A stretch of DNA of 49,310 bases from an uncultured Lachnospiraceae bacterium (GTDB lineage Bacteria > Bacillota > Clostridia > Lachnospirales > Lachnospiraceae): assembly GCA_947566705.1 (NCBI GenBank), contig CANOLA010000013.1, positions 1-49,310 on the forward strand, written 5' to 3'. The number at the start of each line of letters is the position of its first letter. The stretch's first letter is position 1. Below are positions 24,772 to 39,449 of the stretch, in pieces. The notes beneath the pieces are model-generated. The model searched no databases. It worked only from the letters and a program-made list of their open reading frames with translations, and was not told the origin of the DNA. The translations under genes were made by a program, and so were the position numbers.

Positions 24772-25698
24772 TTAAATCCTTTTTAACGAACATTCTCCCT
24801 GCTTTTCCAGATTCACGGCATGATACGCCAGGTCCCCCGGTGTAATAAACATGGCTTCCAACGGCAGGTCACATTTCACTAATTCCAGAAAATATTTAAG
24901 CTTTGAGAGAAACTTTTCTGCCGCGGAAACAGTCTGGGAAAACTTTGCGGAGACATTTTCATCCGGTAAGGTATTATCCGTGTCCGGCAGAGCTTCAGAC
25001 TGGCACAGGGCTTCATACAGTATTTGCGCAAGCTGCTTGGCATTTTCCGGTGCAGGTGTGTTTTCATCTTCCGGGAAAGCAGTATCGTTTGTAAATGAAT
25101 CCGTATTTAAATTTTCAGGGGATAAGGAATCAGACAGCCTGAGGGTTCTGTCTGTTTCGTCAGTCAGGCGTCCTTCCCAGATACAGCCGTCTTCAATCTG
25201 AATCCGGTAGTCTTTCCCGCAGTCATAAAACACATTATATACAAATTCGGAACATACCATTGCCTGGTCTGTGTGGTGCAAAAGGACATGCTGAATCATC
25301 TCATCAAGCATAAAACAGCATACAGTCAGAATTTTATTACTGATGTGCAGGACATCATAGGTTGAAGGAATGCGTTTGTAAATAAGCATGCCTGCAAGAA
25401 TAAACAGGTCAGGATAATCATATCTGACGCCGGCATTTAAATACGCATCTGCAGAGGCAATTAAAGGCGCCGGGTCCATTTCAGGGACAAGACGCATGAC
25501 ATAAATTCCTTCTCCTTCTGAAACATCCACTTTGTCCACGCTGACGCCCCGTGCGCCAAGTTCCACAATGGAATCTTCGGAGTATGCCATTGCAGCGTGG
25601 CTGACATCAGACTGGGTAAACCATGCGATTGCCCGGCTGAGCCAGTCATCCTCCGCCTTAAAAAGAATAATGTCCCCTTTAGTAAGTTTTTTGTTCAT
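24772..25698 (-). CDS. YiiX/YebB-like permuted NlpC/P60 cysteine peptidase
   Basis: 308 residues. Starts KGDIILFKAEDDWLSRAIAW, with His34 in SDVSHAAMA, Glu46 in IVELGARG, and Cys149 in MVCSEFVYNVF. The His-before-Cys order is that of the circularly permuted papain-like YiiX/YebB group. These hydrolyse amide bonds in lipids, peptides or cell wall. The C-terminal third is acidic and probably flexible. Its start codon overlaps the end of the histidine kinase gene by 20 bases, with AAGGAGG placed inside it, so it is translationally coupled to the AgrC/AgrA-like pair. This coupling suggests a role in processing or sensing a peptide signal. Confidence 0.82.
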   Translation of the reverse strand: MNKKLTKGDIILFKAEDDWLSRAIAWFTQSDVSHAAMAYSEDSIVELGARGVSVDKVDVSEGEGIYVMRLVPEMDPAPLIASADAYLNAGVRYDYPDLFILAGMLIYKRIPSTYDVLHISNKILTVCCFMLDEMIQHVLLHHTDQAMVCSEFVYNVFYDCGKDYRIQIEDGCIWEGRLTDETDRTLRLSDSLSPENLNTDSFTNDTAFPEDENTPAPENAKQLAQILYEALCQSEALPDTDNTLPDENVSAKFSQTVSAAEKFLSKLKYFLELVKCDLPLEAMFITPGDLAYHAVNLEKQGECSLKRI

Positions 25699-27022
25699 AA
25701 GAATCCTCCTTTGTTTTGACAGGCAGCATCACAGAAGCATGAAACTGGCTGTCATCATATTGAAATTTCAGTATACCATTATATTTACTGACAATTTTTT
25801 TCACAGAGGCAGTGCCGATACCTTTCTGCCCGTTTTTGGAAGAAATAAAATCTTCCTCTTCTTTATGTATCTGTCCGGAATAAGAATTATCCAGTGTAAT
25901 AATAAGCATTCCCTGAAACTGTGTGATCCGAAGACGCACATATTTATCAGGAACCATCCTGCGAATACATGCTTCGATTGCATTTTCCATAAGATTGCCG
26001 AACAGGACAACGGCATCTGTATCTGAAAGAATAGATTCCGACGGATAGTACGCAGCTGCAGAAAATGTAATATTATTTTTCTGCGCCATGTCTGCATAGT
26101 AGACAAGCAGGGCATTCACAGCGGAATTTTCGCAGTAAAGCAGGGGGGTGTCTGCCGGCACTGTGGACATATAGTTATTTAAATAATTTAAAAGTCCTTC
26201 CTGGTTATTGCATAATGCAAAAGACTGAATTACAGCAAGACTCTGCCTGAAATCGTGTTTTGCCCGGCGGGCGTCTTCAATTCGTTCTTTTAAATTTTCG
26301 TACTGTAAAAACTGCATGGAAAGCTGGTAGTTTTCGGATTTAAGCTCTGAGTTTGCATTGATTTCATACAAAAAACGCATAATCAGCCAGGTGGAAAATA
26401 AGGCACCGAAATTAAAAAATACAGCAAACAATACATTATTTTTAGTCGCAGAAAATGCAGTAATTCCGCCGTTTGCATACAGATTATAGTAGTATGACAA
26501 ACAGAAAGTTGCAGGAAGCATCCAGAGGAATTTCCAGCAGCTGTTGTTTTCAGGAAAGCTGATCAAAGGCTGCAGGTCATGCATCATTTTATAAACAACA
26601 GGATAGCTTATCAGATAACACAGTCCCAGTACTGCAGTAGACGGCAGGGAATATGGATGACCGGTAATTCCCGCAAGCCGGTGATAGGCAAAGTAGCTGA
26701 AAATAACCACAATAAAGCTGGTATAATTTAAAATGGTAAGCAGAACAAACAGCAGCTTGGAAACCTGTGATTTTACGGAAATAATGTAAAAACCGAGATA
26801 GAGTATCATCCATAAAACAGTAAAAAATGCAGCGGCAGCAGGACTGCTTTGTGAAAGAATACGGCTTAATGCAAGTAGCAGATAAAGTATTATAATACAT
26901 AAAGCAAGTTTCTTTTTTGAAAAGCGGAGAAAATCCTTAAATGGTACCAGGGCGAGAATCAGGTTTGGGATTATATCCACTAATTCATAAATACATATTT
27001 CAAAAAATGCCGTAATATTCAT
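25679..27022 (-). CDS. AgrC-like GHKL sensor histidine kinase
   Basis: 447 residues. Six or so transmembrane helices occupy about 1-220, followed by a dimerisation helix with His256 in AKHDFRQSL and a GHKL ATPase domain (LFGNLMENAIEAC; KGIGTASVKKIVSKY). This architecture is that of AgrC/ComD/FsrC-type kinases that detect peptide signals. The ATG overlaps the LytTR regulator stop as ATGA. Together with the downstream YiiX-like peptidase it forms a three-gene unit divergent from the deiminase/radical SAM operon. Confidence 0.9.
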   Translation of the reverse strand: MNITAFFEICIYELVDIIPNLILALVPFKDFLRFSKKKLALCIIILYLLLALSRILSQSSPAAAAFFTVLWMILYLGFYIISVKSQVSKLLFVLLTILNYTSFIVVIFSYFAYHRLAGITGHPYSLPSTAVLGLCYLISYPVVYKMMHDLQPLISFPENNSCWKFLWMLPATFCLSYYYNLYANGGITAFSATKNNVLFAVFFNFGALFSTWLIMRFLYEINANSELKSENYQLSMQFLQYENLKERIEDARRAKHDFRQSLAVIQSFALCNNQEGLLNYLNNYMSTVPADTPLLYCENSAVNALLVYYADMAQKNNITFSAAAYYPSESILSDTDAVVLFGNLMENAIEACIRRMVPDKYVRLRITQFQGMLIITLDNSYSGQIHKEEEDFISSKNGQKGIGTASVKKIVSKYNGILKFQYDDSQFHASVMLPVKTKEDSYEQKTY

Positions 27023-27753
27023 ATGTCCTGCATCCTCACTTTTTTAAATAAAAATTCGGAGTAGGTTTTTAAAATTCCGGCCTGCTGCTTTCTGGAAAGG
27101 GGGATCCGTTCATTGCTGTTCATAACAAAAGTCAAATCATCCATATGGTCAATGCAGTTCATATTGATAATACAGCCCCTGTAACACGGAAGAAATTCAG
27201 AATAAGGTTCCAGCATCCGGCTTAAGCTGTTAAATGGCATGCGGGAACGCTGAAGTCCCAGATTCATGGTATGTATCTGCACATAATGTCCTGAAATATC
27301 ACAGTAAATAATATCATTTAACGGTATTTTAATCTGTTCATAACCGTTTTTAATCTGTATAAAGTGCTGTTCTTTTATTTTTTTTAAATCTACCAGAGAC
27401 ATGGTTTCAGAAAAATCTTCATAGGAAATGGGCTTTACCAGATAGCCGGAAGCACGTATTTTATAGCTGTCAACGGCAAAATCCCTGCTTGCCGTGGTAA
27501 AAATAATAATTACCGCCTGGTCAAGTTTACGGATGGCAAAGGCGGTATCAAGTCCTGATATTCCGTTCATGTAATGGTCAATAAAAATAAAATCAAATAA
27601 ATCCTGTTTAAAATTATATAAAAGTTTTTCCCCGTCTGGAAATATATGTATGGAAAGGGGCATATTGATGCAGTGGCATGAAAAGTACGTTTTTATATAT
27701 TTTGAAATAAGTTCTGCATCCGCTTTCAGGTCATCTATAATTGCTATTTTCAT
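27019..27753 (-). CDS. LytTR-family response regulator (AgrA-like)
   Basis: 244 residues. Receiver domain with acidic Asp7-Asp8 and phospho-acceptor Asp59 (FIFIDHYMNGISG). The C-terminal LytTR DNA-binding domain spans about 135-240 (YCDISGHYVQIHT, FLPCYRGCIINMNCIDHM). LytTR regulators bind paired direct repeats upstream of bacteriocin, autoinducer or virulence genes. First gene of its operon, AAGGAG before the ATG, with promoter TTGATA-N17-TATAAT. The shared divergent region makes the operon starting at 28039 its obvious candidate target. Confidence 0.92.
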   Translation of the reverse strand: MKIAIIDDLKADAELISKYIKTYFSCHCINMPLSIHIFPDGEKLLYNFKQDLFDFIFIDHYMNGISGLDTAFAIRKLDQAVIIIFTTASRDFAVDSYKIRASGYLVKPISYEDFSETMSLVDLKKIKEQHFIQIKNGYEQIKIPLNDIIYCDISGHYVQIHTMNLGLQRSRMPFNSLSRMLEPYSEFLPCYRGCIINMNCIDHMDDLTFVMNSNERIPLSRKQQAGILKTYSEFLFKKVRMQDI

Positions 27754-28038: not shown

Positions 28039-29151
28039 ATGCCGAAACGAATTTTACACAGCACACCAAAACAGGACGGCTTCCGTATGCCGGGGGAATT
28101 TGAACCGCAGGAAAAAATCTATATGCTATGGCCGCAGCGTCCGGACAACTGGAGAAACGGCGCAAAACCTGCACAGAAGGCATTTGCAGAGGTGGCAAAA
28201 GCTATCCGGAGGTTTGAACCGGTAACGGTTCTGGCATCCCCGGAACAGTTTTCCAACTGCAGGAATACGCTTCCGCCGGAAATTACGGTGCTGGAAATGA
28301 CCAGCAATGATGCATGGGTCAGGGACTGCGGTCCTACCTTTCTTGTAAATGATAAGGGAAGTCTCCGGGCATGTGACTGGAAATTTAACGCATGGGGAGG
28401 ACTGACAGACGGACTGTATTTTCCCTGGGACCAGGACGATCTTGTGGCAAGGAAAATCTGTGAACTGGAACATGCAGATTCCTACCGCACGGAGGATTTT
28501 GTACTGGAAGGCGGCTCCATTCATGTGGACGGTGAAGGAACTGTAATGACAACGGAAATGTGTCTGCTGAGCGCAGGGCGTAATCCTTCCATGACAAAAA
28601 AGCAGATTGGAAAAAAATTAAAGAATTATTTAAACTGTGATAAAGTTCTCTGGATTCCGAACGGAATTGACAAAAAAGAAACCAATGGACATGTGGATGA
28701 TATTGCATGTTTTATCCGTCCCGGTGAAGCAGCATGTATTTACACAGAAAATAAAAAACATCCGTTTTACGCTGTTTCGCAGGAAGTATACCGTACTCTG
28801 TCAGGTATGACAGATGCAAAGGGAAGAAAATTAAAAGTCCACAAAATCTGCTGCACCAAACATCCGGTTAAAATGAAAAAACAATTCTGTATTGACCAGG
28901 TGGAAGGTTCCAAACCAAGAAAAAAGGGGGAACTTTGTATTGCATCCTATCTGAATTTTCTGATTGTAAACGGAGGCGTAATCGTACCGCAGTATGATGA
29001 TGAAAATGATAAAAAAGCACTGAAACAGATACAGAAACTGTTCCCTGACCGCAGGGCGGTTGGTGTTCATACAAAAGAAATAGTTTATGGCGGTGGGAAT
29101 ATCCACTGTATTACCCAGCAGGTACCAAAGGTAAGGACAACAGCAAAATGA
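28039..29151 (+). CDS. aguA: agmatine deiminase
   Basis: 370 residues, the normal length for the family. Conserved guanidine-modifying-enzyme residues: Asp96 in WVRDCGP, Glu157 in LEGGSIHVDGEGT, His218 in TNGHVDD and catalytic Cys357 in GGGNIHCITQQ. Agmatine deiminase converts agmatine to N-carbamoylputrescine and ammonia in the cytoplasm. Normally the partners are AguB amidohydrolase, or carbamoyltransferase, antiporter and carbamate kinase; none is present here. Instead it heads an operon with a second deiminase, a pyruvoyl decarboxylase, a C69 peptidase, a repeat peptide and a radical SAM protein, so its real substrate may be a different guanidino compound. Confidence 0.9.
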   Translation: MPKRILHSTPKQDGFRMPGEFEPQEKIYMLWPQRPDNWRNGAKPAQKAFAEVAKAIRRFEPVTVLASPEQFSNCRNTLPPEITVLEMTSNDAWVRDCGPTFLVNDKGSLRACDWKFNAWGGLTDGLYFPWDQDDLVARKICELEHADSYRTEDFVLEGGSIHVDGEGTVMTTEMCLLSAGRNPSMTKKQIGKKLKNYLNCDKVLWIPNGIDKKETNGHVDDIACFIRPGEAACIYTENKKHPFYAVSQEVYRTLSGMTDAKGRKLKVHKICCTKHPVKMKKQFCIDQVEGSKPRKKGELCIASYLNFLIVNGGVIVPQYDDENDKKALKQIQKLFPDRRAVGVHTKEIVYGGGNIHCITQQVPKVRTTAK

Positions 29152-29167
29152 TTTGAAGGAGGACGTT

Positions 29168-30616
29168 ATGCAGAAAAAATTAAAGTTTGCAAAACCAACA
29201 ACTGAACAGCTGAACACGTTTTATGAAGAAAAAATGGGCAGCACGGCCCCTGAAAACAGAGAGTATGTATGCATGGAACCAAATCCGTTCCGGGCGGTGG
29301 CAGAATATGAAGAAATGGGAGGCGTGGTTTTTTCATATATTGGAACGAGGGAACCGGAAGATAAACACAAACAGCTGCCTCCGGGAGGCGAACGGACATT
29401 TGGCGTGCCTAATGAACTGATTGTACTGACACAGCAGAATGATTCGGATAAACCGGTACATACGTTTATATTCTGTGATGATGAAAAACAGCTGGATCCG
29501 ATTAATGCGTCCTTACAGAAGACCGCTGACGAAATGGGAGTTGCATTCAATCCTGACCATGTGCACCTGATTCCATGGGACACCGATACCTACTGGACAC
29601 GGGATTTTTCCCCGTGGTGGCTGTACAATGAAACAACCGGCGAGTACGGAATAGCCAAACACATATATACTTCCCTGGGCGGCGGCACGGTAGGACTGGT
29701 GGAAGGCTCGGAAAATGCGGCAGCAACCGGCGGTACAGGGATTTTCCGCGGAAATGATGATTACGGGGCAGTAAAACTTGCTGACTTTTTAAACGCTCCG
29801 ATTCGTCAGTGGAATAATGCCAGATGGCATGGCCAGCCAAACAAAGAAATGATTCCTGAAAACAGATGGTTTTTTACAGGAATGCTCCATGTGGGCGGAA
29901 ACTATATGTGCACGACAGACGGCAGGATTGCTTCTTCCTATCTGGTTGCGACACAGAATGAACTGCCTTCAGATAAATACTGTGATGGAAATATTACAAC
30001 AGATTCCATAGACAGGCGGATGAAATATATTATGAAACAGTCAAACCGTTTCCTTGGAGCACAGCGTTATTATGCACTGGTTGACCCGACCGGAACATAT
30101 ATTGGACATATTGACTGCTGGGGGAAATTTTTATCCGATAACATTCTGCTTCTGGCGGAAACCAGTGACGCAGCGATTAATGAAGGACTGTCTGAAATTG
30201 AAAAATTCTTAAAAGAATGCTTTGCAGATGACGCTGCAGGCAGCACACTTACGGTAAAACGTGTGAAATGTCCTGATATTTATGTCCCGGACGGCGGGGC
30301 AGAGTGTGCCACCACGGCTCCATATACCAACAGCCTGATTCTTAACAAATGCGTTTATGTTCCGATTGCCGATGAAAAATATGAGGAGGAGAATCAGGCA
30401 GCTTTAAAGGCATATGAAGAAGCTTATTCCGGACAATATAAAATTTACGGTATCCGCGGCAAAAAGGGAACCCCGTGGCTTGGAACAGATGCGCTGCACT
30501 GCAGGACAAATGCAATTCCAAGGACAGTGGTGGACAACTGGCTGAAAAGCCAGGGGCTGGACAGCAATACACCTAAAGTTCCGGTTATCCGGACAAAGCA
30601 GGCAGACAGAACATAA
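29168..30616 (+). CDS. PAD-family (peptidyl-arginine/agmatine deiminase-like) protein
   Basis: 482 residues from ATG 29168 after GAAGGAGG. About 110 residues longer than agmatine deiminases. Catalytic landmarks: Arg145-Asp146 in YWTRDFSPWW, His314-x-Asp316 in YIGHIDCWGKF and Cys445 in LHCRTNAI, matching the PAD_porph fold. This family includes agmatine deiminases and the Porphyromonas peptidylarginine deiminase. No signal peptide, so cytoplasmic. It starts 16 bases after aguA. Two different deiminases in tandem suggest related but distinct guanidino substrates, small molecule or peptide. Confidence 0.85.
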   Translation: MQKKLKFAKPTTEQLNTFYEEKMGSTAPENREYVCMEPNPFRAVAEYEEMGGVVFSYIGTREPEDKHKQLPPGGERTFGVPNELIVLTQQNDSDKPVHTFIFCDDEKQLDPINASLQKTADEMGVAFNPDHVHLIPWDTDTYWTRDFSPWWLYNETTGEYGIAKHIYTSLGGGTVGLVEGSENAAATGGTGIFRGNDDYGAVKLADFLNAPIRQWNNARWHGQPNKEMIPENRWFFTGMLHVGGNYMCTTDGRIASSYLVATQNELPSDKYCDGNITTDSIDRRMKYIMKQSNRFLGAQRYYALVDPTGTYIGHIDCWGKFLSDNILLLAETSDAAINEGLSEIEKFLKECFADDAAGSTLTVKRVKCPDIYVPDGGAECATTAPYTNSLILNKCVYVPIADEKYEEENQAALKAYEEAYSGQYKIYGIRGKKGTPWLGTDALHCRTNAIPRTVVDNWLKSQGLDSNTPKVPVIRTKQADRT

Positions 30617-30657
30617 AACCAAAAACATAAAACAACTGGCAGAAAAGGAGAAAAAAC

Positions 30658-32004
30658 ATGAAAATAGGACAAAGTTTTGGAGAATGGCTTCCGCAGGACC
30701 GCAGTGTGGTTACAGAATGGGTAAATAAACTGATTACTGACATAAAAGAAGAAGAGAAACCGGGAATGAATCTGAAAAACGCTGCCGTAAAAACAGCATC
30801 CCCAAAAATGGGATATAAAGAAATGGTAACTTTTAAACACCAGGAAGTCCTTGAATTTAAACAGAAGGTTATGGAAGATTCGACGCTGCGTCTTCTGGCA
30901 GAACAGATGATTGCACAGGGTTATGCATATAAAACGGAAGATCCGACGGGTAAACCCCAGATTCAGGATTTGGATACACTGTTTAAGCTGATAGATGTTA
31001 TTATTGAAACTGCACCTGAATACATGCAGCCGGAGGAAGATGGCAGGGGATTAATTGGGTTTCCAATCAATGCGGTACTGGACTGGTGTATGGGAACGCA
31101 GGCAGGGTATGCATTTTTTTTGAATGAGCAGGTAAATTCCTGTCTGAATAAGATATTAAAGAAATGGTGTGAATTTTTGAACAGTCCTGCGTCCACGAAA
31201 GTATTAAATAAAAGTAAAACGGGATGGCTGTGCGATGCGGCAGTTGAGGAACTCGCACTTGATGAGTACATAATAGACAAAGAGGATAAACATTTTGGCT
31301 TCAAATCATGGAATGATTTTTTTACCAGGCAGTTTAAGCCGGGGATGCGTAAAACGGAAGCACCGGATGACCCGTATGTGATTGTTAATGCCTGTGAATC
31401 AGCGGCATACCGCATTGCGAACCATGTAAAACCGGATACGAAATTCTGGCTGAAGGAACAGCCGTATGCCCTTGATTATATGCTGGACCACCATGAATAC
31501 ACAAACCGTTTTATCGGCGGAACGGTATACCAGGCATTTTTAAGCGCCACGCATTACCACTGCTGGCATGCACCGGTTGACGGAACTATTGCAGACGTAA
31601 AATTAATTCCGGGCACCTACTACGCGGAAATTAATGAATTTCCATATGATGAAGCCGGTCCGAATGACTCACAGGCATATATTACCCATGTGGCAGCGCG
31701 TGCGATTATCATGATTGAAGCTGATAATAAGGATATTGGAATGGTATGTTTTATGCCCGTCGGCATGAGCGAAGTGTCTTCCTGCGATGTGGCAGTGAAA
31801 AAGGGGGATAAGGTAAAAAAAGGAGATTTTATAGGAAGATTCCTTTTTGGCGGTTCCACACACTGTCTGATTTTTGAACCGAATGTGATTGAAGAATTTG
31901 CAGTTGACGCCATTCCGGCCCCTGATTTCAATGATTCCGCCATTCAGAAACTTGGCAGCAGACTGGCAACAGCAAGGAAAAAGAGAAAACGCAAAAGTTT
32001 TTAA
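30658..32004 (+). CDS. phosphatidylserine decarboxylase-like pyruvoyl decarboxylase (PsiD-type architecture)
   Basis: 448 residues. The N-terminal about 150 residues (GESWLP-like GEWLPQDR... YGFPINAVLD-type segment GFPINAVLDWCMGT) resemble the PSDC leader domain found before some phosphatidylserine decarboxylase domains. The catalytic domain includes FLSATHYHCWHAPVDGTI, PVGMSEVSSC and the self-processing site FGGSTH with Ser400. Cleavage there creates the pyruvoyl cofactor. PSDC-containing proteins include fungal L-tryptophan decarboxylase PsiD, so an amino-acid or peptide substrate is as plausible as phosphatidylserine. There is no membrane helix. It lies between two deiminases and a dipeptidase. 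Confidence 0.8.
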   Translation: MKIGQSFGEWLPQDRSVVTEWVNKLITDIKEEEKPGMNLKNAAVKTASPKMGYKEMVTFKHQEVLEFKQKVMEDSTLRLLAEQMIAQGYAYKTEDPTGKPQIQDLDTLFKLIDVIIETAPEYMQPEEDGRGLIGFPINAVLDWCMGTQAGYAFFLNEQVNSCLNKILKKWCEFLNSPASTKVLNKSKTGWLCDAAVEELALDEYIIDKEDKHFGFKSWNDFFTRQFKPGMRKTEAPDDPYVIVNACESAAYRIANHVKPDTKFWLKEQPYALDYMLDHHEYTNRFIGGTVYQAFLSATHYHCWHAPVDGTIADVKLIPGTYYAEINEFPYDEAGPNDSQAYITHVAARAIIMIEADNKDIGMVCFMPVGMSEVSSCDVAVKKGDKVKKGDFIGRFLFGGSTHCLIFEPNVIEEFAVDAIPAPDFNDSAIQKLGSRLATARKKRKRKSF

Positions 32005-32017
32005 AAGGAGGAAGACT

Positions 32018-33448
32018 ATGTGTACAAGTATTGCATGCGGTAAAAAAGCATCAGAGGGCGGTGTGGTACTGATTGCCAGAAACGAGGATTATCCGGAAAA
32101 CAACTGGAATAAATACATGAAATTCCGGAAATACCCGCCTTATACCAGGGGACAGGACAAATGGCAGCTTGGGAATGGTCTGACAGTCCCGACTCCGGAG
32201 AACTGCTTTTCCTACTGCTCCATGCCGGACGCGCAGGGGGCAGAGGAAGCTGTCTGTGATATTGGAGATCATTTTCTGTTTGAAGCAAGGGGAATCAATG
32301 AAAAAGATGTCGCGGTTACGGCAACAAATTCCATGCAGGCAAATGAAAAAGCCCTGGCAGCAGATCCGTTTCTTCCGTCTTCCGGTATAGAAGAATCTGT
32401 GATTGCCACACTTTTGCTGCCGCAGGCAGTAAATGCCCGGCATGCCGTTCGGTTACTGGGGCAGTATGTGACAGAATATGGCGCCACTGAGGCAAACGGC
32501 GTTCTGATGGCGGATGAGAATGAAGCATGGTATTTTGAAATTGGTTCCTGCCGGCACTGGATTGCCGTGCGGATTCCGGATGATAAATATCTGGTAGTTT
32601 CAAACAGTATGCGAATTCATGATGTGGACCTGACGGACACGGAACATGTGTTATCTTCTGACGGCCTGTTTGATTTTGTTATTGAACATGGTCTGCTTGA
32701 GAAACCAAAACAAAATAAGTTTGATTTTGCCACGGCATTTGGCCAGCAGGAAAAATCTGAATCCGGGCAGACAGACAAGTATTACAATACAGACCGAATC
32801 TGGCTGGCGCAAAATATTCTCTCACCGTCACAAAAACCGGAAATAAGGCAGGACACTTATGAACTGTTTCTGGCGCCGGATGAACCCATTACACCTGTAC
32901 ATGTCATGGAAGTGCTGCGCAGTACCTTTAAAGGAACACCGCTGGAACATGAACCTGATGCCACCCGGCCAATCGGCGTGGTACGGACCCTGCAGAGCCA
33001 TATTATGACAGTGGACGGCAGACTCCCCGCCGGACTTAAGGGCGTTATCTGGCAGGCTTTGGGCAGCCCGCTTAGCAGTGTTTATGTACCGTTTTATGCA
33101 CTGGCGGATGAAATTCCGGATTCGTATGCATTGGGTGATTCCACTTCCTTTACTGAGAAAAGCATATGGTGGATCTGGCGCGGGCTGTTTGCCCTGGCAG
33201 ACCAGATGGATGGGCAGAATAAGTCTGATGGGCTGTTAACTTACTGTAAAACCTGGGAAAATTATTTTATTGAATCCCAAAAAGCCATGAACCAAGTTCT
33301 GGAACAGTTTTCACAACCGGATGCTTCTGACGCGAAGTTAATGGCAAAGACTTACAGCACAAATAATCTGCGTTTAATGGCAGATGCCGCCATGCAGAAA
33401 TATGAATTAATGATGGCTGAACTTTCCGGAAGACAAAAAGACAGGTAG
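32018..33448 (+). CDS. C69-family dipeptidase (Ntn hydrolase)
   Basis: 476 residues from ATG 32018, with AAGGAGG upstream; earlier in-frame ATGs lie inside the decarboxylase gene. The N-terminus MCTSIACGKKASEGG followed by VLIARNEDYP is the C69 signature, with Cys2 expected to become the N-terminal nucleophile. The middle has ATNSMQANEKALAADPF and LMADENEAWYFEIGS, typical of PepD. These enzymes cleave dipeptides, and relatives include bile-salt and penicillin acylases. Cytoplasmic, since it lacks an export signal. It follows the decarboxylase by 13 bases and precedes the repeat protein, so it may trim modified peptide products. Confidence 0.88.
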   Translation: MCTSIACGKKASEGGVVLIARNEDYPENNWNKYMKFRKYPPYTRGQDKWQLGNGLTVPTPENCFSYCSMPDAQGAEEAVCDIGDHFLFEARGINEKDVAVTATNSMQANEKALAADPFLPSSGIEESVIATLLLPQAVNARHAVRLLGQYVTEYGATEANGVLMADENEAWYFEIGSCRHWIAVRIPDDKYLVVSNSMRIHDVDLTDTEHVLSSDGLFDFVIEHGLLEKPKQNKFDFATAFGQQEKSESGQTDKYYNTDRIWLAQNILSPSQKPEIRQDTYELFLAPDEPITPVHVMEVLRSTFKGTPLEHEPDATRPIGVVRTLQSHIMTVDGRLPAGLKGVIWQALGSPLSSVYVPFYALADEIPDSYALGDSTSFTEKSIWWIWRGLFALADQMDGQNKSDGLLTYCKTWENYFIESQKAMNQVLEQFSQPDASDAKLMAKTYSTNNLRLMADAAMQKYELMMAELSGRQKDR

Positions 33449-33494: not shown

Positions 33495-34343
33495 ATGGAA
33501 AAGGAGTATGTAGTACTGGAAGGAAAAGTTTTTGTGGTAGAACTTTTGTCAAATCTGGGTTCTGCAAATTACGGCTGGTGTATTTCAAAGCTTCCTGAGC
33601 AGCTCATTGTGATGGAAACAGAGAATATTCATGTTGGGGGCAGGGGCAGCGCGACAACACTGCAGAGGTTTTATTTCGGGGCAGTATCCGCAGAGCCAGT
33701 AAATGCTGAAATTTCTTTTACAATGAACTGCTGGTCAAAGCTTTCCGACGTGGCGGAAAACTTTACGGCAAAAGTGAGAATCGTTGCAAGTAATTCGGAG
33801 GAATTTGTATCTTACAGTGAAAATATGGAAAATATTGCAATACCTTATGGGTATATATATGCAAATAACAGTATACAGAATTCCTGCCAGGATTACGGAT
33901 TGCCATATGACAGACTGGATGTTGCAGAAAAGTACGGCTATCCATGCGGAGTACAGGATGCGAACTTAAAGTATGGCTATCCATGTGGAATGCAGGATGC
34001 AAACCTGAAATACGGCTATCCGTGTGGAGTACAGGATGCGAACTTAAAATACGGCTATCCATGCGGAATGCAGGATGCGAACTTAAAGTATGGCTATCCA
34101 TGTGGAATGCAGGATACTAATCTTAAATATGGCTATCCATGTGGAATGCAGGATGCAAACCTGAAATACGGTTATCCGTGTGGAATGCAGGATGCAAATC
34201 TGAAATACGGCTATCCATGCGGAGCGCAGGATGCAGTGCTGAAATACGGCTATCCGTGCGGAGCACCGGGTACAATCGTGGCATACGGCTATCCATGCAT
34301 GGAATACACGAAAGAAACACGCCCGTATGGTTTTCCATATTAG
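33495..34343 (+). CDS. chagasin-like protein with nine tandem KYGYPCG repeats (candidate RiPP precursor)
   Basis: 282 residues. Residues about 5-100 look like a chagasin/I42 cysteine-protease-inhibitor fold: GSANYGWCI replaces the NPTTGY loop, HVGGRGSATTLQRFYFGA the GxGG loop, and AEISFTMNCW the RPW strand. From Lys146 there are nine exact 13-residue units, consensus KYGYPCGMQDANL, then AYGYPC and a tail ending RPYGFPY. A degenerate unit (DYGLPYDRLDVAE) precedes them. One Cys per unit, ten in all. No signal peptide. A radical SAM/SPASM gene starts 18 bases later, so the repeats are inferred to be modification cores behind a leader-like domain. Alternative: a structural or inhibitor protein with a repetitive tail. 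Confidence 0.75.
   Translation: MEKEYVVLEGKVFVVELLSNLGSANYGWCISKLPEQLIVMETENIHVGGRGSATTLQRFYFGAVSAEPVNAEISFTMNCWSKLSDVAENFTAKVRIVASNSEEFVSYSENMENIAIPYGYIYANNSIQNSCQDYGLPYDRLDVAEKYGYPCGVQDANLKYGYPCGMQDANLKYGYPCGVQDANLKYGYPCGMQDANLKYGYPCGMQDTNLKYGYPCGMQDANLKYGYPCGMQDANLKYGYPCGAQDAVLKYGYPCGAPGTIVAYGYPCMEYTKETRPYGFPY
33930..34280 (+). repeat. nine tandem 39-bp coding repeats
   Basis: Each 39-bp unit encodes 13 residues. Units differ mostly at synonymous positions (AAG/AAA, TAC/TAT, TGC/TGT, CCA/CCG, AAC/AAT) and at Val/Met/Ala after CG. The protein sequence is therefore kept by selection rather than by very recent copying. Confidence 0.95.
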
Positions 34344-34361
34344 AGGAAAGGAGAAAGGCAT

Positions 34362-35798
34362 ATGAAATATCAGCCAATTACCTGCGTATGGGAAGTAACC
34401 ATGGGCTGCAATATGCACTGCGGACACTGCGGCTCTTCCTGTGCGAAACCTCTGGACGGGGAACTTACCACAGAAGAGGCACTGGATTTATGTGACCAGA
34501 TTGCAAAGCTTGGGCTGAAATGGGTGACACTTTCCGGCGGGGAACCTCTTACCAGACCGGATACTCCGGAACTGGTAAAACGGCTGTCCTCTCAGGGCGT
34601 TTCTGTTAATATCATTACCAATGGGTGGCTTCTTGATAAAGCCATGGCGGAAAGATTAAAAGACAATGGCATTGCAACAGTTGCAATCAGCATTGACGGA
34701 ACAAGGGAAATCCATAATGATATCCGAAAAGAAAAAGCTTTTGAGCATGCCGAAGAAAGCTTTCAGAATCTGAAGGAACTGGGAATCAGAACCGGAGCCG
34801 TTACGACCATAACCAACCGCAACATACAGATTCTTGGTGAATTAAAAGAAGAACTGATTTGCATGGGTGTAAAAACATGGCAGGTGCAGCTGGGACTTCC
34901 GATGGGGAATTTAAAAGACAGACCGGACTGGGTTCTTTCACCTGAAAAAGTGCAGGATATTATAGATTTCTGCTATGAAACAGCAAAAGAGGGAAGAATC
35001 AAAATTTATCCGGCGGACTGTCTTGGTTACTACACAAAAAAGGAACTGGAAATCAAAAAGATTTCCTACGAAACAGACATGGTTTCTTTATGGGACGGAT
35101 GCAATGCCGGAATCAGGGGGTTTGGAATTCTACATGACGGAAGGATTCTTGGCTGTACTTCCATACGGAATGAAGAGTTTATTGAAAAAGAGTCCGTCAG
35201 GGAACGCTCCCTGCGGGATATCTGGGAGAATGGAAAATGTTTTGAATGGCGCAGAAACTTTAAAAAAGAGGAATTAAAGGGCGACTGCAAAACCTGCATT
35301 TATGGAAGCAAATGTCTGGGAGGATGTCCGAATACCAGACTTACCATGAATGGAGATATTCATTCCGAAAACCAGTACTGTGCCTATAACCTGAAGCTGA
35401 AAGAAATGAAAGCGAAACAGCAGGAAATAACAGAATCAAAGGGCTTGTTTGAAAAGGCCGACGGCCTGATTAAGCTGGGAATTTACCAGGAAGCCGCCAT
35501 TGTTCTGTCGCGCCTGCTGGAGCTGGAACCGGAGCATGAAAAAGCACTGGTGGCAAAGGCATATGCGGAATATATGTGCGGCAATTATGAAATATGCAAA
35601 GAGGATAATGCAAAAGCGTTAGCACTGAATGAGGAAAACGCTGACGCATTAAGCGGGTATGCCATTGCACTTTTTAAACTGGGAGATGTACAGGACGGTA
35701 TTAAGAACATGAAAAAAGCCGTAGCTCTTTCCGGCGGCAGAAAGGACATGCAGAGTGATTTAGCCAGAATGATGGCTGCGGAGCAAATCCCATGTTAA
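34362..35798 (+). CDS. radical SAM/SPASM protein with C-terminal TPR domain
   Basis: 478 residues. The radical SAM cluster motif is CNMHCGHC (Cys16, Cys20, Cys23), followed by SGGEPL for SAM binding. A SPASM region has Cys247, Cys265, Cys309, Cys312, Cys318, Cys322 and Cys340 (KGDCKTCIYGSKCLGGCPN), enough for auxiliary FeS clusters. Residues about 360-460 form tetratricopeptide-like helices (GIYQEAAIVLSRLLELEPEH, NYEICKEDNAKALALNEENA). SPASM enzymes modify RiPP precursors, forming thioether, C-C or epimerised residues. Position after the Cys-repeat gene makes that protein its likely substrate. No RRE-like N-terminal domain is seen, so the TPR may recognise the leader. Confidence 0.88.
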   Translation: MKYQPITCVWEVTMGCNMHCGHCGSSCAKPLDGELTTEEALDLCDQIAKLGLKWVTLSGGEPLTRPDTPELVKRLSSQGVSVNIITNGWLLDKAMAERLKDNGIATVAISIDGTREIHNDIRKEKAFEHAEESFQNLKELGIRTGAVTTITNRNIQILGELKEELICMGVKTWQVQLGLPMGNLKDRPDWVLSPEKVQDIIDFCYETAKEGRIKIYPADCLGYYTKKELEIKKISYETDMVSLWDGCNAGIRGFGILHDGRILGCTSIRNEEFIEKESVRERSLRDIWENGKCFEWRRNFKKEELKGDCKTCIYGSKCLGGCPNTRLTMNGDIHSENQYCAYNLKLKEMKAKQQEITESKGLFEKADGLIKLGIYQEAAIVLSRLLELEPEHEKALVAKAYAEYMCGNYEICKEDNAKALALNEENADALSGYAIALFKLGDVQDGIKNMKKAVALSGGRKDMQSDLARMMAAEQIPC

Positions 35799-35828
35799 TT
35801 CACAGCGCGATAAATTAAATATTTCTGA

Positions 35829-35862
35829 TACAGACATGCGGTTTCTGCATGTCTGTATTTTT
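35829..35862 (+). terminator. rho-independent terminator of the deiminase/radical SAM operon
   Basis: 11-bp stem TACAGACATGC (35829-35839) with GCATGTCTGTA (35847-35857), then TTTTT. Confidence 0.85.
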
Positions 35863-35978: not shown

Positions 35979-36650
35979 ATGAAAGAGATTCTGATTGTGG
36001 AAGATGACAGCAGGATTAATGAGATGATAAAAACTGGTTTATCAAAAGCAGGTTATTCATGTGTCAGTGCGTTTTCCGGCACGGAAGCAAAATTACTGCT
36101 GGAAAGCCGCTCATTTGATTTGATGATTCTGGATTTAATGCTTCCGGGAATAACCGGGGAACAATTGTTAGAAGAGATCAGAAAAAGCAGCGCCATGCCG
36201 GTAATTGTACTGTCCGCAAAAGATGAACTGGATACAAAAGTTGACCTTTTGACGCTTGGTGCGGATGATTATATCACAAAACCTTTTGAGTTAAAGGAAC
36301 TGGAGGCAAGGGTGCTCGTACAGCTTCGTAACCATGCACAGCGGGACAAAACAAACAGCCTGCTGGAATATAAAAATCTATGCCTGGATACAGAAAAGAA
36401 ACAGTTGTTTGTAAGTGAAAAGCCTGTTTCCCTGACCGCCAGGGAGTACCGGATTATGGAATTATTTTTAAAATATCCCCAGAAAGTTTTTTCCAAAAAC
36501 GAGCTGTATGAATATGCCTGGGAAGAATATTATATCGGGGAGGACAAGACAATCAATGTCCATATCAGCAATATCCGCGGGAAAATAAAAAAGGTTTCGG
36601 AGAGAGAATGTATTGAAACGGTCTGGGGACTGGGATTTAGGCTGCTGTAA
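35979..36650 (+). CDS. OmpR-family response regulator (antimicrobial-peptide resistance type)
   Basis: 223 residues. Receiver with Glu8-Asp9-Asp10, phospho-Asp52 (LDLMLPG) and Lys in ITKPFE, then a winged helix (about 130-223, KTINVHISNIRGKIKK...ETVWGLGFRLL). AAGGAG before ATG. It is followed by an ABC ATPase, ABC-2 permease and kinase, the gene order seen in bacitracin/lantibiotic detoxification and immunity modules. It probably binds TTAAC repeats in the gap before the ABC genes and induces them. Confidence 0.92.
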   Translation: MKEILIVEDDSRINEMIKTGLSKAGYSCVSAFSGTEAKLLLESRSFDLMILDLMLPGITGEQLLEEIRKSSAMPVIVLSAKDELDTKVDLLTLGADDYITKPFELKELEARVLVQLRNHAQRDKTNSLLEYKNLCLDTEKKQLFVSEKPVSLTAREYRIMELFLKYPQKVFSKNELYEYAWEEYYIGEDKTINVHISNIRGKIKKVSERECIETVWGLGFRLL

Positions 36651-36652
36651 AC

Positions 36653-36704
36653 TTTAACATTTCTTAACCCTTTTTTGACGTATGTTTAACCATTTCCTGT
36701 TAAT
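36653..36704 (+). promoter_or_regulatory. TTAAC repeat cluster before ABC genes
   Basis: TTTAAC (36653), TTAACC (36664), TTTAACC (36685) and TTAATC (36700) surround a TTGACG (36675-36680). Probable response-regulator boxes and promoter for the ABC pair. Spacing is irregular, so this is tentative. Confidence 0.35.
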
Positions 36705-36748
36705 CTGTTACTGCAGAGATGAAAATAACAGTGATAAAGGAGGAACTT

Positions 36749-37651
36749 ATGGAATATGTGGTAGACACTTGCGCGCTGACAAAACAGTTCCGAAAGCATA
36801 AAGCAGTAAACAATATCAGCCTGCATATCAAAAGAGGGGAAATCTACGGCTTTATTGGAAGAAACGGTGCCGGAAAAACAACTTTTATGAAGATGGTATG
36901 CGGGCTTTCTGTACCGACGTCAGGAGAACTGAAACTGTTTGGTGCGGCAGGAAAAGAAGCTGCAAAGTACCATAGCCGTATCGGCAACCTGATTGAACAG
37001 CCCGGATTGTACAGCGAGATGACTGCATGGGAAAATCTGCACATGAAATGCCTTGCGCTTGGAATCCATGAAGAAGACTATGAGAACAGGCTGCTTGCCA
37101 CCGTTGGACTGGCGGACGCAGGAAAGAAACGTGTCAGACAACTGTCCCTCGGAATGAAACAGCGTCTGGGAATTGCCATGGCACTGGTGGGAAAACCAGA
37201 CCTGCTGGTTCTGGACGAACCGGTCAATGGACTGGACCCACAGGGAATTGCAGAAGTCAGAAAGCTTTTATTAAAACTGAAAGCCGAGAAAAATATGACA
37301 ATTTTAATCTCCAGCCATATTCTGGAGGAACTTTATAAAGTGGCGGATACCTTTGGCATTATCCATAATGGAGTACTGATTCAGGAATTGTCAAAGGAAG
37401 AACTGGATGAAAAATGCAGCGACTACACCGAAATCCTCACGAAAGATGCAAAGAAAGCATGTCCGGTGATTGAGCAGACGGGCTGCCGGAATTACCAGGT
37501 AATGCCTGATAACAGTATTCGTATTTTTGACGTGATACCGGAACCCGGAAAACTGAATATGAAACTGGTAAATGAGGGCTGTATGGTAGAGTCCATGCAT
37601 ATGGTTTCCGGTAATCTGGAAGAGTATTTTCTGAATTTGACAAGGGATTAG
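36749..37651 (+). CDS. ABC transporter ATP-binding protein (BcrA/lantibiotic immunity type)
   Basis: 300 residues from ATG 36749 after AAAGGAGG; an in-frame ATG at 36719 lacks a ribosome site. Walker A GRNGAGKTT, Q loop, signature LSLGMKQRLG, Walker B LLVLDEPVNGLDP and H loop in LISSHILEE. The C-terminal 80 residues match the BcrA/NukF/LanF-type extension. It energises the following permease, expelling or removing a membrane-active compound. Encoded within an RR-ABC-permease-HK unit. Confidence 0.92.
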   Translation: MEYVVDTCALTKQFRKHKAVNNISLHIKRGEIYGFIGRNGAGKTTFMKMVCGLSVPTSGELKLFGAAGKEAAKYHSRIGNLIEQPGLYSEMTAWENLHMKCLALGIHEEDYENRLLATVGLADAGKKRVRQLSLGMKQRLGIAMALVGKPDLLVLDEPVNGLDPQGIAEVRKLLLKLKAEKNMTILISSHILEELYKVADTFGIIHNGVLIQELSKEELDEKCSDYTEILTKDAKKACPVIEQTGCRNYQVMPDNSIRIFDVIPEPGKLNMKLVNEGCMVESMHMVSGNLEEYFLNLTRD

Positions 37652-37662
37652 GGGGTGTCAGG

Positions 37663-38514
37663 ATGTTGAATTTAATCAGAATGCATTTATACCGGATGGC
37701 AAGATCAATCAGTTTATGGATAGTTATGGTTATCATGGTTGCGAGCTGTGCTTTTTCAAGCTGTATGCAAATAGTATCTCTGGATATTACAGGTCCTCTC
37801 TGGCCGGACTATGAAGAGTCAGAGAGTGGTTTTGGACTTTTCTTTTCTCCGCCGGCAGGTAAGTATGGGGAGGCTGCTTCTTTTCTGGAGTTTTATAGTT
37901 CCGATTTATCATCCGGGATTCTTCTTGTGTTCCTCTCTATCGCCTGTGCCATCTTTTACGGAGAGGAAATAAAAAGCGGTTTTTTGAAAAATATTACGGG
38001 GCAGACAAGAGATAAGACGGATATTTTTTGGTCAAAGGTTATCTTCACCATACTCCTTACCTTATTTATGATGCTGCTTTATGGCATAGCAAAGTTTATT
38101 GGGCTAAAGCTGCTGTTTCCCAAAGAATATACGCTGCGGTTTGCATCAGAATGCTGGCCGGCAATCCCATTTATATTGGTAGGAAATTTTATCCTGCATC
38201 TGGCGTTTGCAGGAGGAATTGTGTTACTTACCATGTTATCCAGAAGTACAACAGTAGGCAGTATTGTAGGAATATTTACTGCTCTGGGTCTGCCGGGAGG
38301 TGTTCTGGGTATGATGGAGGAATCGTACAACGTGGAGCTGGTAAAATATCTGATAACAACCAATGTACACAATATGCGGATTGCGACAATATATAATGAA
38401 TGGATTGGATATTCGGAAAAAGATATTTATTTTGCACTGGGTGCAGGTTTTTTCTTTTTCATTCTTTATGAAGTGCTGGGAGCGGTTTATTTTACTAAAA
38501 AAGATGTGGATTAA
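37663..38514 (+). CDS. ABC-2 type permease (lantibiotic immunity/bacitracin type)
   Basis: 283 residues with about six transmembrane helices; the ATG lies 11 bases after the ATPase stop. Long extracellular stretch after helix 1 (SLDITGPLWPDYEESESGFG...), then IACAIFYGEEIKSGFLKNI, the conserved coupling segment of ABC-2 immunity permeases. It forms the membrane half of the exporter. The substrate is predicted to be a peptide antibiotic, from family and from the flanking two-component genes, not from direct sequence evidence. Confidence 0.85.
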   Translation: MLNLIRMHLYRMARSISLWIVMVIMVASCAFSSCMQIVSLDITGPLWPDYEESESGFGLFFSPPAGKYGEAASFLEFYSSDLSSGILLVFLSIACAIFYGEEIKSGFLKNITGQTRDKTDIFWSKVIFTILLTLFMMLLYGIAKFIGLKLLFPKEYTLRFASECWPAIPFILVGNFILHLAFAGGIVLLTMLSRSTTVGSIVGIFTALGLPGGVLGMMEESYNVELVKYLITTNVHNMRIATIYNEWIGYSEKDIYFALGAGFFFFILYEVLGAVYFTKKDVD

Positions 38515-38528
38515 AGGCGGAAAATTTT

Positions 38529-39449
38529 ATGGAATGGTTTTGTCTCGGAACTGTTTTTTTACTGTTTGTTTTTATTTTGAAATACTGCATTTACCGGCGG
38601 CAGATTCATGAAATCTGCCGCCAGCTGGACTTTATGCAGAAAGAAACAACAAATAAAAGAATCCAGACAGATTTGTCCAGAAAAGAAATTATAAATCTTG
38701 CGGAGCAGATTAACTATATGGCGGACAGAAAGGAAGAAGAAAGTCTTTCCATTAAGAGTAAAGAGCAGCAGTTAAAGGAAACGCTGGCAAATATATCGCA
38801 TGATATCCGTACACCTCTCACATCCATGAAAGGTTTTTTTGAGTTATATACGCAGGAAGGAGAACCGGAAAAAAAGGAGTATTTTGAGCAGGTAATCCGG
38901 GAAAAAATGGATGATTTAACAGTTCTGCTGGAGGAACTTTTCACCTATACAAAACTGCAGAATGAAACCTATGAACTGCAGCTTGAGCAGCAGGATTTTA
39001 CAAAGCTGGTACTGGACAGTCTGTTTTCTTTTTACGGTCAGTGGAAGGAAAAAGGAATTTCCCCCGTGCTGTCTGTGGATGAAGATACGGTAATGGTTTT
39101 ATGTAATGACACGGCGGTCAGGCGTATCCTTACCAATGTTCTGCGCAATGCCATGCTGCATGGGGACGGGGAGATTGAAATACGCTATCAGGTGAAAAAA
39201 GACGGAGTGTTATTCCGGTGCTGTAACGGATTTCAAAGTGCAGGGGAACCCGACATGGAGCGTGTGTTTGAACGTTTTTATAAAGGGGACAGCGCCCGCC
39301 GGGAATCTTCCAGCGGACTGGGTCTGTCCATTGCAAAGGAGCTGGCGCTGCGGATGGACGGGAACATGGAAGCACGGGCAGAGGACGGGAGGTTTCTGGT
39401 TGAACTTGTATTTCCCCGCGCAGGGGCTGGGTTATTTTTTATGGGCTGA
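38529..39449 (+). CDS. sensor histidine kinase (intramembrane-sensing type)
   Basis: 306 residues. Only a short N-terminal hydrophobic stretch (about 2-22) precedes a coiled linker, so it lacks an extracellular sensor domain. HisKA has His91 in NISHDIRTPLTSM, and HATPase has the N box (ILTNVLRNAMLHG) and G2 (SSGLGLSIAKE). Kinases of this kind depend on their partner ABC transporter to sense antibiotic flux. Completes the unit begun by the response regulator at 35979. Its 3' end overlaps the convergent DUF2812 gene by 18 bases. Confidence 0.9.
   Translation: MEWFCLGTVFLLFVFILKYCIYRRQIHEICRQLDFMQKETTNKRIQTDLSRKEIINLAEQINYMADRKEEESLSIKSKEQQLKETLANISHDIRTPLTSMKGFFELYTQEGEPEKKEYFEQVIREKMDDLTVLLEELFTYTKLQNETYELQLEQQDFTKLVLDSLFSFYGQWKEKGISPVLSVDEDTVMVLCNDTAVRRILTNVLRNAMLHGDGEIEIRYQVKKDGVLFRCCNGFQSAGEPDMERVFERFYKGDSARRESSSGLGLSIAKELALRMDGNMEARAEDGRFLVELVFPRAGAGLFFMG

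Follow-up and report, generated by a model that had tools for sequence, protein, structure and literature searches.

A two-gene module of the probable splicease type, pairing an I42-fold repeat protein with a radical SAM enzyme in an uncultured Lachnospiraceae bacterium

A 49,310 nt stretch of contig CANOLA010000013.1 (assembly GCA_947566705.1), from an uncultured Lachnospiraceae bacterium and referred to here in its entirety as the window, contains two adjacent genes whose products appear to belong together: a protein in which an I42 (chagasin-like) domain is followed by a tail of X-Y-G repeats, and a radical SAM/SPASM enzyme with a C-terminal TPR region (Table 1). The enzyme open reading frame (ORF) begins 18 bases 3′ of the substrate ORF on the + strand. 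We propose that the two genes probably form a self-contained splicease-type module for protein modification, in which tyramine would be excised at each KYG of the repeat protein. A splicease of this kind, PlpXY of Pleurocapsa, was reportedly described by Morinaka in 2018, with products called spliceotides.

The repeat tail is highly regular. A sequence-only reading of the window had described nine phased 13-residue units behind a chagasin-like domain, with selection acting on the peptide, and both claims hold. The 39-base phase is perfect across the nine units (33930-34280), each of which has one Cys; KYGYPCG is present in all nine, the full 13-residue consensus KYGYPCGMQDANL is exact in four, and past the ninth unit come AYGYPC, as a tenth site, and then PYGFPY at the C-terminus. 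Tandem Repeats Finder reports the array at 33929-34262 with a score of 389, all other rows for the window being short and scoring 52-72. Comparison between the nine units shows only synonymous differences in the KYGYPCG part (proportions of nonsynonymous and synonymous differences, pN 0 and pS 0.53), and in the linker part the residues vary as well (pN 0.21, pS 0.63); the absence of amino-acid change in nine KYGYPCG units supports the earlier view of a multi-core protein under selection. A DNA pattern for KYGYPC matches ten times in the 3.4 Mb genome of the window, nine times in the substrate gene and once elsewhere, and the reversed control pattern has no match there. Across 33 sequence sources (425 kb; 17 rows, overlapping), ORFs with at least three Y[GA]xP sites occur only as the partner gene of the radical SAM family, in a scan that left out the VYAGP-group loci described below. 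In the repeat protein of one relative (L008:175-1098), a second kind of repeat, NQPFLRNSCAPD, follows the KYGYPC units.

The N-terminal domain was suggested in the same reading to have an I42-like fold, and the predicted model of residues 1-110 agrees: the first eight rows of the VIA-align comparison are all I42 inhibitors, Amebosin and chagasin are second and twelfth in the Foldseek ranking, and the domain is a full predicted fold of the I42 beta-sandwich type, with nine invariant columns. The Pfam model PF09394 (Inhibitor_I42) has no match in the window sequence and scores 49.1 bits in a relative, L043, against a gathering score of 27.2. The BC loop reads GS(S/T/A)NYGW in 11 of the 15 domains and VSTGYAW in L043, and thus differs there from the NPTTG-type inhibitory loop of chagasin. 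Several other matches were discarded, namely subtilisin for the N-terminal domain (best E value 0.37), Saxiphilin for a profile (A2; best E value 0.3), OTU1_UBXL and XylR_N of Pfam for the repeat tail (13 residues long and judged chance), and the ACGX-repeat peptide model TIGR04341 (13.7 bits, with a cut-off of 28).

The enzyme has the cysteines expected from the earlier description of a downstream radical SAM protein with seven SPASM-region Cys: those at residues 247, 265, 309, 312, 318, 322 and 340, together with Cys 16, 20 and 23 of the CX3CX2C motif, are invariant in 12 of 12 aligned enzymes, the window's included. Its best NCBIfam model is TIGR04103 (213 bits), which we take to be the family of PlpX (IPR026482), and the next are TIGR03913 (191), TIGR04133 (181) and AhbD (180), with 86 bits for SkfB and 69 for PapB; TIGR04103 comes first and TIGR03913 second in all six relatives scanned. 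Among four tested loci of the 24-row subclade defined below, the TPR region exceeds its cut-off in the window, L044 and L038, and is weak in L021; the enzyme of L052 has 384 residues and is too short for it. The TPR enzymes of L044 and L038 lie beside substrates that have a double-glycine leader and no I42 domain, and the TPR region is thus not tied to that domain.

The proposed pairing of substrate and enzyme was put to a homologue search, which returned the repeat protein rather than unrelated neighbours. A protein with an I42 domain and YG repeats adjoins the enzyme at ten of 11 homologue loci (contig scan, named genomes), upstream at nine of them and downstream at L009, where the legible repeats, NIYAYPF, lack a Cys behind the motif. 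At the eleventh locus, L010, the enzyme is 43% identical and the precursor has MMYAVRPP and an NHLP leader that scores over the NCBIfam cut-off. When 397 genomes of the family were searched, the enzyme profile was matched in 19 at 1e-60 and the I42-domain profile in four, each with the enzyme adjacent, and the same four genomes have the best enzyme scores; because all four domains had been used to build the I42-domain profile, this result shows only that the search met no stray carrier and is not an independent test. That the repeat protein is structural or signalling and stays unmodified, with the enzyme acting elsewhere, is the least probable of the alternatives, given this adjacency and the X-Y-G/A precursors, most with unrelated leaders, at seven of the ten other subclade loci.

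A tree of 56 enzymes, with ten inner forks open and several outgroup rows long, places the window in a 48-row set (support 100/98) together with a plasmid-encoded Nostoc protein that carries the TIGR04103 annotation. The set also includes TIGR03913, TIGR04133 and VYAGP-type enzymes, and the eight rows outside it are MftC, an AhbD-like protein (so labelled because 60 genomes yielded a single match to AhbD, below its cut-off), TIGR04347, TIGR04053, two Paenibacillus proteins and two paralogues from the window's own genome. Within the set, the window belongs to a subclade of 24 rows (92/93, unstarred), in which a 14-row I42 group containing the window is nested (100/97). A nearby precursor with X-Y-G or X-Y-A is present at 21 of the 24 subclade loci. 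Its leader is of the I42 type in the 14 and in L043; L044 and L048 have a double-glycine leader (DEELLDMVGG-like) with RPLYGIEP or KPLYGIEP cores; in L038 a leader of this type precedes four XYG sites, and L066 has a precursor of the L038 kind about 2.3 kb downstream. The other precursors are short KYGVP repeats in L021, an AYAVVP protein in L036 and the NHLP-led one in L010. No leader model exceeds its cut-off for the double-glycine leaders of L044, L048 and L038, and a nif11-type label for these was dropped for that reason. In Nostoc, the TIGR04103 enzyme is accompanied by a Nif11 precursor that ends in ALYGLPPELF, and its gene overlaps a small frame of 71 residues.

Related enzymes outside the subclade have partners of other kinds. 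The VYAGP group (L024-L026, L028, L029, L031-L035, L037, L040, L042, L045-L047) has short enzymes of about 340 aa, with no room for the TPR region, and motifs of the VYAGPE type are present in adjoining proteins at 16 of 18 loci of the group, the forms in L024 and L029 being YAPP or YAAP. The motifs are often in many copies, several of the proteins have a zinc-ribbon-like C-terminal end, and a literature search by the motif (VYAGP/YAGPE) gave no relevant paper; the group can be seen as a YA analogue of the XYG systems. At L053, L054 and L055, X-Y-G/A motifs (PYGAG, LYGGA, CEYGSP) are located near the N-terminus of DUF1843 peptides (five of six) and of a Bacteroidota lipoprotein, which is a hint that the whole clade reads the motif. 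At L023 a related radical SAM domain forms the C-terminal end of a 784-residue fusion protein, and at L022 a related enzyme adjoins a 429-residue protein without visible YG repeats, possibly a different type of substrate.

Motif statistics across the I42-type proteins separate what is constant from what is not. Among 125 Y-[GA]-x-P sites in 15 proteins, the window's included, the residue before Tyr is Lys at 97 and the +1 residue is Gly at 119; Cys follows the Pro at 85. Cys is absent after the Pro at the four sites seen in L009 and at all four of L020 (one of which has Cys one residue later), is present at one of nine in L043, and varies in L002, where PC, PY and PF units are mixed. With Cys at 85 of 125 sites and none in L009 or L020, it appears to characterise the window's subgroup rather than the reaction. 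The earlier proposal that each repeat is cross-linked through a Cys thioether, as in ranthipeptides or sactipeptides, fits the single Cys that stands unchanged in each of the nine units, and SPASM enzymes often make thioethers. It does not fit this distribution, in which X-Y-G/A is constant, nor the scores of 69 bits for PapB and 86 for SkfB against 213 for TIGR04103; a thioether as the core reaction was discarded on the Cys conservation, and we regard a cross-link in each repeat as very unlikely.

We infer the chemistry from the motif and the clade. The repeat protein presents nine in-phase K-Y-G sites and one A-Y-G, possibly also one P-Y-G, behind the I42-fold domain; a splicease-type enzyme would remove tyramine at each KYG, leaving alpha-keto-beta-homolysine groups. 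The mass change predicted per site is about -135 Da rather than the -2 Da put forward earlier, and its value per repeat distinguishes splicing (-135 Da) from cross-linking (-2 Da). The conserved Cys of the subgroup may be secondary, for example trapping the neighbouring ketone or forming disulfides. PlpX is placed in IPR026482 in PMC11002830, and tyramine excision at XYG is described as its chemistry there and in PMC10533398. The core PIRPLYGIEP of L044 is close to PIRPLYGLPI and PIRPGYGLPI, two PlpA2-derived tags described in PMC10533398.

A number of points weigh against tyramine excision. The TIGR04103 score of the window enzyme (213 bits) is far under the cut-off of 725, TIGR03913 trails it by just 22 bits, and the equation of TIGR04103 with the PlpX family is presumed. 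The tree places the Nostoc TIGR04103 protein outside the window's subclade, in a group (97/86) with enzymes of the GDL and VYAGP types. No PlpY-like small gene was found beside the enzyme, there being no ORF of at least 60 aa up to the gene at 35979. No precursor was found in the DNA examined at L039, L041 and L052 (only 4 kb for L039 and L041), nor was one recognised outside the subclade at L022, L023, L027 and L030; many of the compared loci are from metagenome-assembled genomes. The wider clade has XYA substrates (L009, L010, L036 and the VYAGP group), for which splicing is only putative. Within the window gene, KYGYPCG, Cys included, is invariant in amino acids across the nine units, so that the Cys matters here. 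Modification of the tags is context-dependent, with two of 16 FtsZ constructs modified, both GYG, and the LYG tags there unmodified (PMC10533398).

Some of these points fit an alternative in which the clade shares recognition and not chemistry, the enzyme making some other change to the Tyr or Gly of X-Y-G (for example Tyr cross-linking, epimerisation, beta-oxidation, or cleavage with no rejoining). The clade is wide, with Y-G/A also in the partners of the GDL/DUF1843 systems, in the TIGR04133 lipoprotein (CEYGSP) and in the VYAGP group, the TIGR04103 cut-off is not reached, the Nostoc member is not the closest kin of the window, and XYA occurs beside XYG. The published chemistry found for an XYG-directed enzyme near the clade is tyramine excision (PMC10533398, PMC11002830), and the L044 core nearly equals a PlpA2-derived tag; we thus consider another chemistry clearly the less probable choice, and one that still deserves weight.

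If tyramine is excised, the product may well be the whole protein. Only the substrate and the enzyme are common to all 11 loci when frames of at least 80 aa within 9 kb are compared, and neither a transporter, a protease nor any other third gene was found at all 11. With no exporter, peptidase or RiPP (ribosomally synthesized and post-translationally modified peptide) recognition element (RRE) gene common to the loci, the I42 domain probably does not serve as a leader that is cut off. The TPR region may take the place of an RRE, as the earlier reading proposed. A comparison of small frames (30-130 aa) close to the pair gave none common to more than five of the 11 loci and none like the 71-aa frame of Nostoc; the small-frame groups common to four or five loci overlap the substrate gene by position. 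A classical secreted RiPP, in which the I42 leader is cleaved and about ten short peptides are released, would be compatible with tyramine excision: multi-core precursors exist, Lys or linker residues could be cut, genes for an ABC transporter and a two-component system are located downstream in the window (35979-39449), and a transporter of the C39 peptidase type adjoins L038, L039 and L041 (by eye). The lack of a common transporter or protease and the conserved full fold of the domain argue against release of peptides, as does the leader being dispensable for PlpXY (PMC10533398), and this outcome seems to us rather unlikely. The downstream response regulator, ABC and kinase genes were rejected as part of the module, their relatives being scattered (L011; the ABC ATPase also in L002 and L009).

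We infer instead that the tyramine-excised product would be an inhibitor-type domain whose flexible tail carries as many as ten electrophilic ketoamides, the side chain being that of Lys in most. It could act as a multivalent reversible-covalent protease trap, most likely against Lys-specific serine or cysteine peptidases, and spliceotide-type products are stated to inhibit proteases in PMC10373908 and PMC11002830.

A possible functional partner is encoded some distance upstream, in a divergent operon of a C92-like gene, a GHKL kinase and a LytTR regulator that is present at four of the 11 loci, the window included, two of the 11 having little upstream DNA. Similarity of the first protein to C92 (YiiX) peptidases is weak: Pfam PF05708 is below cut-off throughout, with E values of 0.15 in the window, 0.03 in L074 and 0.026 in L075, and no match in L073. 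A C92-like profile matches four of the 397 family genomes, namely the window's own, G054 (weakly, 23% identical), G148 and G087. Two of these, G054 and G148, have the I42 system, with the C92-like protein on other contigs; leaving the window's own genome aside, an overlap of at least two between carriers of the two has a chance of about 1e-4. In all, the C92-like protein is present in six of 15 I42-type systems searched (four linked loci and two more genomes where it is unlinked) and absent in nine, and a Fisher test on this co-occurrence (six of 14, L043 excluded) is biased since the profile was made from four of those six. The C92-like protein follows a homologous kinase in L073 and a weakly similar response regulator in L075; in G087 (L074) it is present without a homologous kinase or a detected I42 system. 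A structure model of the C92-like neighbour was left unused (pLDDT 46.9), and the best match of the profile in PDB (E value 0.075) was judged chance.

Directly before the substrate gene is a run of + strand genes (28039-33448) for an agmatine deiminase, a second PAD-like protein, a phosphatidylserine-decarboxylase-like protein and a C69 dipeptidase. We do not count these as module genes: at 1e-6 neither the C69 nor the phosphatidylserine-decarboxylase-like protein has a match in the other loci, and none of the four is in a group with members from another locus. Sites matching the terminator consensus, such as the one listed after the enzyme gene, number 12 in the region and 8.4 in shuffles.

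Table 1. Coordinates of the two-gene module and of a possible partner operon in the window.
Feature	Coordinates	Strand	Remarks
Substrate protein, I42-like domain and XYG repeat tail, 282 aa	33495..34343	+	ORF
I42 (chagasin-like) domain, residues 1-110	33495..33824	+	
Nine 39-base units, each KYGYPCG and a 6-residue linker	33930..34280	+	Predicted splice site K-Y-G per unit
C-terminal tail AYGYPCMEYTKETRPYGFPY and stop	34281..34343	+	May hold one or two more XYG sites
Radical SAM/SPASM/TPR enzyme, 478 aa, probably of the splicease type (tyramine excision)	34362..35798	+	Models, alignment, tree
CNMHCGHC, radical SAM CX3CX2C motif, residues 16-23	34407..34430	+	Cys invariant in 12 aligned enzymes
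SPASM region, seven invariant Cys, residues 247-340	35100..35381	+	
C-terminal TPR region, about residues 360-456	35439..35729	+	
Intrinsic-terminator-like hairpin, 15 pairs, T-rich tail	35827..35859	+	After enzyme gene; consensus match only
Protein weakly like C92 (YiiX) permuted papain-like peptidases, 308 aa	24772..25698	-	Possible functional partner
GHKL-type histidine kinase	25679..27022	-	Operon with C92-like gene
LytTR response regulator	27019..27753	-	Operon with C92-like gene

Taken at its fullest, the proposal is of an intact intracellular polyvalent covalent trap, an I42 fold with about ten alpha-keto-beta-amino warheads, nine of them Lys, made by a two-gene, RRE-free splicease of the TPR type and partnered in some genomes with a C92-like peptidase – as target or as controlled switch – under GHKL/LytTR control; we offer this as a tentative picture that is unlikely to hold in full. 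If true, bacteria equip whole proteins, and not just peptides, with rows of ketoamide beta-amino acids next to a fold of the protease-inhibitor type, and polyvalent covalent inhibition has a natural example. A splicease would also be working, with neither a classical leader nor an RRE, at many sites in phase, and as a compact tool of just two genes the pair could introduce many bioorthogonal ketones into a single protein.

Among known systems, the earlier statement that no described class has this motif or leader was too strong, as the system resembles the spliceotides. Literature searches on YGYPCG, on YGYP repeats with radical SAM and on chagasin with radical SAM found no paper, a 2022 survey (Scott et al., Chem) that may list the system lying outside the search, and a search on Kineothrix with radical SAM gave nothing judged related. 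Like PlpX, the window enzyme is a radical SAM/SPASM protein of the wider TIGR04103-like clade, and like PlpXY substrates its adjacent substrate has X-Y-G, often then x-P, at several sites per protein (nine KYG, with AYG and PYG). Unlike PlpXY, the substrate has an I42-fold domain in place of a nif11 or nitrile-hydratase leader and nine to ten phased sites with X mostly Lys, and the enzyme is fused to a TPR region and has no small gene of the PlpY type. Because the score is below the TIGR04103 cut-off, the leader is of another type and no small partner gene was found, we do not file the enzyme as a TIGR04103 member and say only that it probably works like one. The GDL-motif systems (TIGR03913 with DUF1843 peptides) have enzymes in the same 48-row set, and five of the six short peptides read carry LYG, PYG, LYA or MYA close to the N-terminus; unlike the window substrate, these peptides have a single site, no repeats and no I42 domain. 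Ranthipeptide and sactipeptide maturases (PapB, SkfB) share the radical SAM/SPASM architecture and Cys-containing repeats, and differ in that the window enzyme scores low with their models and the Cys is not conserved across relatives. Finally, the substrate protein departs from the chagasin family (PF09394, MEROPS I42) in its BC loop, its long repeat tail, the lack of a secretion signal by eye and, for the window sequence, a similarity below Pfam detection.

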